From a virus, in the IMG/VR virus record IMGVR_UViG_3300025087_000186, positions 1 through 39,257 of that record: a DNA stretch of 39,257 nucleotides. One strand, given 5' to 3'. The position numbers were made by a program, and so were the translations under genes. Positions 5,250 to 39,257 of the stretch are shown piece after piece (within the stretch, counting starts at the first letter, position 1; each line of letters opens with the position of its first letter). The notes under the pieces were generated by a model. It saw only the letters and a program-made list of their open reading frames with translations, was not told the DNA's origin and made no database searches.

Positions 5250-5268
5250 CAGGAGGTGGTAGGGTGAA
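5250..5268 (+). repeat. 19-bp direct repeat, copy 1 (SD plus start)
   Basis: The 19 bases CAGGAGGTGGTAGGGTGAA carry the Shine-Dalgarno site and GTG start of the cytosine methyltransferase. The same 19 bases recur at 6122-6140, across the end of that gene and the start of the next. Confidence 0.9.
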
Positions 5269-6139
5269 CTACTACAACGAAATTGACCCGTTCGCCGCCT
5301 CGTGGTTGCGAGAACTTATTAAGGCCGGACTTATCCCAGACGGCTACGTTGATGAAAGGAGTATTGCCGATGTCAAAGGATCAGATCTTACAGGGTACAC
5401 ACAATGTCACTTTTTCGCCGGGATCGGCGGGTGGGCCAGAGCGCTTGAGTTGTCCGGTTGGCCAGCAGACCGACCTGTTTGGACAGGAAGTTGCCCGTGT
5501 CAATCCCTTTCGGTGGCAGGGCTTGGAAAAGGCGCTGATGATAAAAGGCATTTGTGGCCTGAGTTCGCCCGCCTCATCTGCGAGTGTGAGCCTTCAACAG
5601 TCTTTGGAGAACAGGTTGCGTCAAAACTTGGACGTCAATGGCTCTCAGGAGTACGCCTTGACCTGGAAGCGATGGGATATGGAGTCGGGGCCGCCGATTT
5701 GTGCGCTGCGAGCATCGGGGCGCCGCACATCAGACAGCGGTTGTGGTGGGTGGCACAGTCCGCAAGCTCACGATGTAACGCCGAGGGGAAAAGGACAAAA
5801 GATCAAACACGGAACGAAACACGGCTGCGGGGATCTGAACGCGGATGTTGCGACAATGCCGCTGACACTGGGGATGTCGGAAACGGGAACGAACCCGGAC
5901 GGCTCGGAGCGGAACAGGCTGGACCAGTTGCCAAGAGTAGCACACCAGGCTTTTGGTCAACCGCTATCTGGCACCACTGCCGGTACGGAAAAACAAGGCG
6001 CATACCGGTTGAACCCGCTCTTTTCCCTCTGGCTTATGGGATATCCAATCGGGTGGGCATCCTGCGGGGCGCTGGTAACGCGATTGTCCCGGCGGTTGCA
6101 GCGGCGTTCATAAAATCATATCAGGAGGTGGTAGGGTGA
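5264..6139 (+). CDS. dcm: C5-cytosine DNA methyltransferase
   Basis: A 291-aa DNA (cytosine-5) methyltransferase that transfers a methyl group from S-adenosylmethionine. Motif I FAGIGG is at residues 51-56, motif IV with the catalytic Cys (GSCPCQS, Cys79) at 75-81, motif VI-like FGEQV at 114-118, motif VIII HIRQRLWW at 155-162, and a C-terminal motif X-like RGAGNAIVP. It belongs to the common phage group in which an Asp-Pro-Phe N-terminus precedes motif I. The GTG start has a strong SD (AGGAGGTGGT). There is no neighbouring endonuclease, so self-protection is likely. A second long frame lies inside it (5370-6113), described separately. Confidence 0.92.
   Translation: MNYYNEIDPFAASWLRELIKAGLIPDGYVDERSIADVKGSDLTGYTQCHFFAGIGGWARALELSGWPADRPVWTGSCPCQSLSVAGLGKGADDKRHLWPEFARLICECEPSTVFGEQVASKLGRQWLSGVRLDLEAMGYGVGAADLCAASIGAPHIRQRLWWVAQSASSRCNAEGKRTKDQTRNETRLRGSERGCCDNAADTGDVGNGNEPGRLGAEQAGPVAKSSTPGFWSTAIWHHCRYGKTRRIPVEPALFPLAYGISNRVGILRGAGNAIVPAVAAAFIKSYQEVVG
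5370..6113 (+). CDS. Nested gene overlapping the cytosine methyltransferase (+1 frame)
   Basis: A 247-aa frame lies wholly inside the methyltransferase gene, +1 relative to it. It has its own Shine-Dalgarno site AAAGGAG (5355-5361) eight bases before ATG 5370. Its sequence looks protein-like: SLENRLRQNLDVNGSQEYAL, TWKRWDMESGPPICALRAS, GRRTSDSG, and near the end NPLFSLWLMGYPIGWASCG. From memory, proteins with these same motifs occur in many phage and metagenome entries as unexplained hypotheticals, often at methyltransferase loci. That suggests real overprinting, not an accident. The function is unknown. It is rich in Trp, Ser and Pro, with no visible membrane segment. Confidence 0.6.
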   Translation: MSKDQILQGTHNVTFSPGSAGGPERLSCPVGQQTDLFGQEVARVNPFRWQGLEKALMIKGICGLSSPASSASVSLQQSLENRLRQNLDVNGSQEYALTWKRWDMESGPPICALRASGRRTSDSGCGGWHSPQAHDVTPRGKGQKIKHGTKHGCGDLNADVATMPLTLGMSETGTNPDGSERNRLDQLPRVAHQAFGQPLSGTTAGTEKQGAYRLNPLFSLWLMGYPIGWASCGALVTRLSRRLQRRS

Positions 6140-6140
6140 A
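6122..6140 (+). repeat. 19-bp direct repeat, copy 2
   Basis: Exact second copy of the sequence at 5250-5268, again holding a strong SD and a GTG start. The two copies flank the methyltransferase cassette, so recombination between them would remove it and leave an intact SD-start for the gene at 6136. Confidence 0.9.
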
Positions 6141-38685: not shown

Positions 38686-39257
38686 ATGAAGATCACAAAG
38701 GGGTGGTTTAAAGAGCATGATGGTAAATGGTTTTTAAGAACGTCAGACAATGGAGTCTCGCACAACAATTTTAAGCGCACGCCAGTGGGGCAGTGGAATG
38801 TTGCTACCAACTGGACCGGTGAGCCGTCATGTAACGCCTGTGGCGGCTTTTTCGGTATAGACCCAGAGGCTTATAGGTTTGGCCTGCCGATACGTAAAAC
38901 ATTTGAGCTTTGCCTGTGGCGTGGCGACCGTGTTGTTATTGATGGCGACAAGATTTGCGTGCGTGGATACAAGGTGGTCTCAGTGGACGCAGATATCCCT
39001 GACGAGGCGTTTAACTTGTGCGGGATATTTACACCCCAAAACCTGGAAACTATTACCCCAAAAGATGGAGAGGTTTATCTTATAAGACAGAATCGGATGG
39101 TCAACATATCTAACCAGAGCGGTGGTTATTGCTGGTTCCACGGCAACAGCAAGTGCGGAACGGTATCCGGCCAGAGCGGTGGTAATTGCTGGTTCCACGG
39201 CAACAGCAAGTGCGGAACGGTATCCGGCCAGAGCGGTGGTAATTGCTGGTTCCACGG
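38686..39257 (+). CDS. 57-bp-repeat protein, N-terminal part (runs off the right end)
   Basis: The frame opens at ATG 38686 after AAGGGAGAAAG and is still open at base 39257; it resumes at base 3 of the left end. The first ~141 residues are a non-repeated domain (KITKGWFKEHDGKWFLRTSD, CNACGG at Cys52/55, KTFELCLWRGDRVVIDGDKI). From about residue 142 come 19-residue units (SGQSGGNCWFHGNSKCGTV), three of them visible here, the first with Tyr for Asn. The N-domain may anchor or control, the repeats may form an extended solenoid. Function unknown. The full protein has at least 6 units. Confidence 0.7.
   Translation, partial: MKITKGWFKEHDGKWFLRTSDNGVSHNNFKRTPVGQWNVATNWTGEPSCNACGGFFGIDPEAYRFGLPIRKTFELCLWRGDRVVIDGDKICVRGYKVVSVDADIPDEAFNLCGIFTPQNLETITPKDGEVYLIRQNRMVNISNQSGGYCWFHGNSKCGTVSGQSGGNCWFHGNSKCGTVSGQSGGNCWFH
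39110..39257 (+). repeat. 57-bp tandem repeat array, right part
   Basis: Two and a half or more units follow a first, slightly different one. They match the left-end units except CAC instead of TAC in the codon after TGG TTC. Joining the two ends needs at least the 14 missing bases CAACAGCAAGTGCG, plus an unknown number of whole units. Confidence 0.95.

Follow-up and report, generated by a model that had tools for sequence, protein, structure and literature searches.

A conserved gene in the +1 frame of a phage C5-cytosine methyltransferase gene probably encodes a second subunit of the enzyme

Introduction

The small subunit of the C5-cytosine methyltransferase M.EcoHK31I is encoded in an alternative frame within the gene for its large subunit. 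The enzyme consists of two polypeptides, the large one carrying motifs I-VIII and X together with a predicted recognition region and the small one carrying motif IX (PMC3404938), and it has been used as a naturally split enzyme (PMC3439449). M.AquI is also a naturally split C5-methyltransferase, with alpha and beta subunits (PMC3404938). M.HhaI and M.HaeIII, in contrast, are single chains in which the small domain and motif IX are read in the same frame as the rest of the enzyme, and the +1 frame is closed.

Here we analyze a pair of overlapping genes, termed alpha and beta, in an IMG/VR virus record of 39,257 bases, which is the window referred to throughout. The pair resembles M.EcoHK31I (YGGCCR) in that a motif-IX-like segment is on the small chain while motifs I-VIII and X are on the large one; this is a likeness in the way of working, judged by motif layout rather than by homology. 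M.EcoHK31I is a bacterial restriction-modification enzyme, whereas these are phage genes with no restriction enzyme recognized beside them. M.AquI (CYCGRG) is active as two chains, as we propose for the phage pair, but its split lies in the variable region, and the second chain has both motif IX and motif X. The phage pair, in contrast, keeps motif X on alpha and has its second gene inside the first, in a different frame. Alpha matches the catalytic large domain of M.HhaI and M.HaeIII, and the motif-IX-like segment of beta aligns with their motif IX.

Results

An open reading frame of 247 codons lies entirely within the methyltransferase gene. The beta frame begins with the ATG at 5370 and ends with the TAA at 6111-6113, inside the alpha frame of 5264-6139 (Table 1). 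An earlier note on this DNA, made from its letters only, had pointed to this frame with its AAAGGAG-ATG start and had quoted several motifs of the nested protein; the frame and the sequence at its start were confirmed, and all of the motifs are present in the translation. The +1 frame is also open ahead of 5370, where TTG/ATG codons at 5283, 5349, 5352 and 5364 are weaker candidates. Judged from the sequence, ATG 5370 is the best-supported start of beta, not a proven one. Among 161 loci, in-frame ATGs preceded by a Shine-Dalgarno-like sequence recur, 65 loci having one at alpha codon 36, 35 at codon 30 and 21 at codon 40. The Shine-Dalgarno-like sequence of the window is encoded by the conserved D-E-R-S of alpha, and Arg32 of alpha is AGG in 55 of 161 loci (34%), compared to 9% of other Arg codons.

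Table 1 Features of the overlapping alpha and beta genes (positions in the window)
Feature	Position	Strand	Remarks
alpha, C5-cytosine DNA methyltransferase, catalytic subunit	5264..6139	+	291 aa, GTG start
AAAGGAG, Shine-Dalgarno-like, for beta	5355..5361	+	8 nt before ATG 5370
beta, nested gene in the +1 frame of alpha, proposed motif-IX/target-recognition subunit	5370..6113	+	247 aa
alpha motif I, CHFFAGIGGW	5405..5434	+	columns invariant or near-invariant
alpha motif IV, catalytic PCQ	5495..5503	+	P78 and C79 invariant, Q80 nearly so
beta conserved core, helix 71-90 and strands 95-102 and 110-117	5580..5720	+	pLDDT 75-90; +1 conservation excess 1.1-2.7 per column
alpha motif VI, GEQV replacing ENV	5606..5617	+	E116, Q117 and V118 invariant
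beta variable region, proposed (inferred) target-recognition segment	5721..5999	+	length highly variable between loci; predicted disordered alone
alpha motif VIII, HIRQRL	5726..5743	+	R157 and R159 invariant
beta motif-IX-like segment, RLNPLFSLWLMGYPIGW	6006..6056	+	hhalign to motif IX; highest +1-frame excess, 4.9
alpha motif X, GNAIVP	6074..6091	+	G271 invariant, N272 and I274 nearly so

Alpha is a C5-cytosine methyltransferase. It matches PF00145 in Pfam (E=3.6e-15) and phrog_363 in PHROGs (E=9.6e-81), and its sequence contains, in order, motifs I, IV (PCQ), VI (E), VIII (RxR) and X (GN). The AlphaFold model contains a confident catalytic domain similar to the large domain of M.HhaI and M.HaeIII (Foldseek E=1.5e-8). 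When alpha was aligned to canonical enzymes with hhalign, the alignment was confined to canonical columns 3-175, which hold motifs I-VIII. Residues 183-228 and 249-271, where the small domain is expected, had a pLDDT below 50, and neither hhalign nor AlphaFold revealed a small domain with motif IX in the alpha chain.

Beta matches a labeled PHROGs family. The earlier note had likened its motifs to those of unexplained phage proteins, a description that holds only in part, as beta matches phrog_1008 (E=3.9e-21), a family labeled 'DNA methyltransferase', and M.EcoHK31I offers a biochemical precedent. Among its relatives, 78 of 78 match phrog_1008 and 76 match phrog_31772. For these families, as for phrog_363, PHROGs gives only the label 'DNA methyltransferase' and does not mention the overlap. 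Searches of beta against Pfam, NCBIfam and PADLOC gave nothing, the PDB contained no sequence match, and a profile search of solved structures came back empty. Modeled alone with AlphaFold, beta had a mean pLDDT of 59 and was mostly disordered except for the helix at residues 71-90, strands at 95-102 and 110-117, and helices at 216-223 and 227-237. A fold search with this low-confidence model returned chance matches only, with no solved structure at an E below 0.001.

The one place where the beta profile aligned with canonical C5-methyltransferases in hhalign was residues 216-238, which fell on motif IX. Here LNPLFSLWLMGYPIGW of beta aligns with motif IX of M.HhaI, KLHPRECARVMGYPDSY, the latter sequence having been checked against the PDB. 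Taken alone, this is a weak match over few residues (hhalign probability 2.4, P 0.02), but only 1 of 150 column permutations reached its score. The segment also fits the motif IX pattern L-[HN/T]-P-x(5)-[LV]-[MQ]-G-[YF]-P, a short match that lends moderate support. Its core is kept while the preceding sequence is altered in several loci, among them Klebsiella phage SBP (FHPIMARQIMGFPPEW) and Bas76 (ARQLMGYPQEW). At the other end of the protein, the first 65 residues are little conserved. The N third is open but poorly conserved, and in this clade it probably serves as a disordered leader that is translated.

Stop codons are avoided in the +1 frame across beta. We sampled 80 loci from viral contigs and 80 from bacterial or archaeal genomes by alpha alone, and the expected number of stops was obtained by shuffling the synonymous codons of alpha. 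The best match to the beta profile was in the +1 frame of alpha in all 160 of these loci, with the caveat that the alpha profile was itself built from loci originally found through beta. Conversely, 80 of 80 loci sampled by beta had an overlapping alpha in the correct frame, and among the sampled loci neither a beta without alpha nor an alpha without beta was found. Across the span of alpha there were 24 stops in the +1 frame versus 604 expected, and the frame was fully open in 141 of the 160 loci versus 4.8 expected; the leftover stops were mostly at the two ends of beta. The same count by region in 161 alignable alpha genes gave 275 stops observed versus 194 expected before beta, 3 versus 60 in its N third, 0 versus 248 in the core, 0 versus 133 in the variable region, 3 versus 103 in the C part, and 129 versus 56 after beta. 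Depletion of stops is therefore limited to beta, with 6 observed inside it overall versus about 545 expected.

Synonymous change in alpha is reduced over the same stretch. In comparisons at 45-60% alpha identity, divergence at fourfold sites of alpha was 0.70 before beta, 0.68 over the beta N third, 0.38 over the core, 0.53 over the variable region, 0.28 over the C part and 0.58 after beta. The per-column excess of beta-frame similarity over the expectation from synonymous shuffles was about 0.1 ahead of beta and 0.05 behind it, compared to 2.7 at GSQEYALTWK and 4.9 at LNP...WLMGYP...W. Position 1 of the alpha codon is position 3 of the beta codon, and among the 15 most similar pairs it was alpha position 1 that varied most in the variable region (0.31, versus 0.16 at position 3). 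Kagunavirus phages show the same tendency there. In 363 of 400 pairs the +2-frame control of the similarity test was also above its shuffles, probably from +1 constraint fixing shared third positions, and we therefore relied on the contrasts between regions and on canonical genes as a control. In 80 HhaI-like single-chain genes, there were 724 stops in the +1 frame versus 723 expected, no gene was open, fourfold divergence was flat (0.70-0.74), and there was no beta match.

Stop avoidance and reduced synonymous change are thus both confined to the overlap, and beta is a real, selected gene. The earlier note had proposed that both frames are conserved, with one stretch of DNA encoding two proteins, and had suggested testing whether matches to the nested protein lie in the +1 frame of methyltransferase genes, as they did in every alpha-sampled locus. 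It had also named three observations that would speak against this, namely stops in the +1 frame of most homologues, loss of the Shine-Dalgarno sequence, and no reduction of synonymous change. None was borne out: almost every homologue has its +1 frame open over beta, starts preceded by a Shine-Dalgarno-like sequence recur in similar positions, and divergence falls from 0.70 to 0.28 at the beta C-terminus.

The arrangement extends to other phage groups. A tblastn search with beta identified 170 phage records. Acinetobacter phage ABMM1 encodes a distant alpha, also with a beta in the +1 frame. Among relatives of this type, 79 of 79 were open over the tested +1 region (0 stops versus 193 expected) and 77 of 79 matched the beta profile in the +1 frame; the two exceptions were a locus whose best match to beta fell in frame 0 and one (L373) that had no beta match though its +1 frame was open. 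The two main groups of beta are related (hhalign, 99.1%), a score that is raised in part by their overlap with homologous alphas. With the beta profile of the ABMM1 type, hhalign gave no alignment at motif IX. In Paenibacillus phages and Microbacterium phage R1, a nested +1 ORF has LNPxWVExLMGFPIGW or LNPRWIEWLMGFPVGW at its end. PACT201 is an exception, a phage record with broken frames.

The start codons of alpha and beta overlap in ATGAATGAG in the ABMM1-type relatives inspected (among loci L344-L423), where the ATG of beta follows that of alpha by 4 nt. With starts four bases apart, both proteins may share one common ribosome-binding site.

Annotation of the pair is uneven. Both genes are listed in the records of K1G, fKuEco01 and fTaEco01, where beta is a 'putative Mte8-like protein', a label whose origin in K1G was not traceable, and in that of Paenibacillus phage Jacopo. 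Alpha only is listed for N15, RcAqua, SBP, EBPR podovirus 2, Golestan and the BASEL phages Bas73, Bas74 and Bas76. It seems that one of the two genes is lost at gene calling. In Cr-LKS3, PMG1, FoX4 and phiEc4, only beta is annotated, as a methyltransferase or a hypothetical protein. No description of the nested gene in phages was found in openly searchable papers, and in such papers it seems to be unreported that several large clades of phage methyltransferases have the nested arrangement as a rule.

Repeats were observed at the locus and elsewhere in the record. An exact 19-bp direct repeat, CAGGAGGTGGTAGGGTGAA, is present at 5250-5268 and 6122-6140 (0.02 matches expected by chance), one copy containing the ribosome-binding site of alpha together with its GTG start, the other the same signals of the next ORF. 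With a copy at both starts, the methyltransferase gene is bracketed by the repeat, which may be a mark of its insertion or loss as a cassette. The repeat was absent from every other fetched locus. The two ends of the record, 1-172 and 39114-39257, carry the same 57-bp unit in tandem, with an open frame encoding a repeating VIAGSTATASAERYPARAV, and as the repeats are at both ends the record is probably circular, with its ends joined across the array. A run of about ten GCT trinucleotides at 851-879, which could be a length-variable site, lies within an N6/N4 DNA methylase gene (541-1353, PF01555) and gives rise to CCCCCCCCC in its protein. In the gene at 1701-2240, about 20 copies of the 9-bp GCTGATGCT (2016-2190) encode an Ala/Asp repeat in an Imm5-like protein.

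Discussion

We propose, with a probability of roughly 0.8, that beta is the second subunit of a heterodimeric phage C5-methyltransferase and that the locus encodes both subunits from overlapping frames. Both genes exist, are conserved and under selection, and come as a pair throughout the sampled loci, and of the two only beta has the motif-IX-like segment. The link between the nested protein and the methyltransferase that the earlier note considered plausible is thereby supported. Alpha would be the large catalytic subunit, which binds AdoMet and carries motifs I-VIII and X, with only a variable, low-confidence stretch in the place of the small domain that would otherwise provide target recognition and motif IX. 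Translation of beta would begin within alpha at ATG 5370, from its own Shine-Dalgarno-like sequence and in the +1 frame, and the protein would contribute a helix and two-strand element, a variable segment and the motif-IX-like segment. By docking on alpha, beta would complete the enzyme, being required for its activity, and set or help set its target specificity. In M.EcoHK31I the recognition region was reported on the large subunit, so specificity in the phage pair may sit on either chain.

The heterodimer would methylate phage (or host) DNA. No restriction enzyme was recognized among the neighbors examined, namely a DnaB-type helicase, a RecU-like nuclease whose Pfam score was sub-threshold, a ParB-like protein and a terminase. 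The likeliest role is that of an orphan methyltransferase, probably guarding the phage from restriction.

Other explanations of beta are possible in principle. It could be a separate protein, such as an anti-restriction or regulatory factor, that is merely overprinted on the methyltransferase gene; beta indeed has no significant whole-length match to any methyltransferase, and a methyltransferase small domain in it has no structural support. We consider this improbable, since beta was never found away from alpha in the 80 beta-sampled loci, it holds the motif-IX-like segment that is missing from alpha and its conservation peaks there, and the small subunit of M.EcoHK31I, with its motif IX, sets a precedent. 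A little less probable again is that beta is made by ribosomal frameshifting, without an internal start, as a fusion of the N-terminal part of alpha to the C-terminal part of beta. Several observations argue against this: the +1 frame is open through the N third of beta (3 stops versus 60 expected), which would be needless for a late shift, starts preceded by a Shine-Dalgarno sequence recur, AGG is enriched at Arg32 of alpha, and in the ABMM1-type relatives inspected the +1 frame begins with its ATG 4 nt after that of alpha. A frameshift would put motifs I-VIII and IX on one chain and would fit the little conserved N third, but motif X would require a shift back.

That the open +1 frame is only a by-product of alpha composition or codon usage, with no second protein, is hardly credible. 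Stop depletion ends exactly at the ends of beta, synonymous divergence is lowered only over beta, and canonical methyltransferases show neither effect, even though GC-rich genes do have long alternative frames open by chance and 4.8 of 160 loci stay open under shuffling. Together with the canonical control, the synonymous shuffles rule out chance openness.

The pair would thus work like a known rarity, but in a large class of phage methyltransferases the nested arrangement seems to be usual, and mostly just one of the two genes is annotated. Evenly balanced, in our judgment, is the broader idea of a large and ancient class of overlapping-gene phage C5-methyltransferases, with at least four alpha types in phages of Proteobacteria, Firmicutes and Actinobacteria. 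Here the small specificity domain of a single-chain enzyme would now be read in the +1 frame, one frame encoding catalysis and the other DNA recognition, and the two genes would be unable to exist or evolve separately.

Prokaryotic genomes rarely contain long overlaps of same-strand genes with conservation in both frames, and the one described here seems to be the usual form of a phage enzyme that is very common. If the two-subunit reading is true, either listed gene expressed alone would give an inactive or mis-specific enzyme, and such products could mislead studies of phage resistance to restriction. The locus also offers a clean natural system for the evolution of two reading frames under joint constraint.
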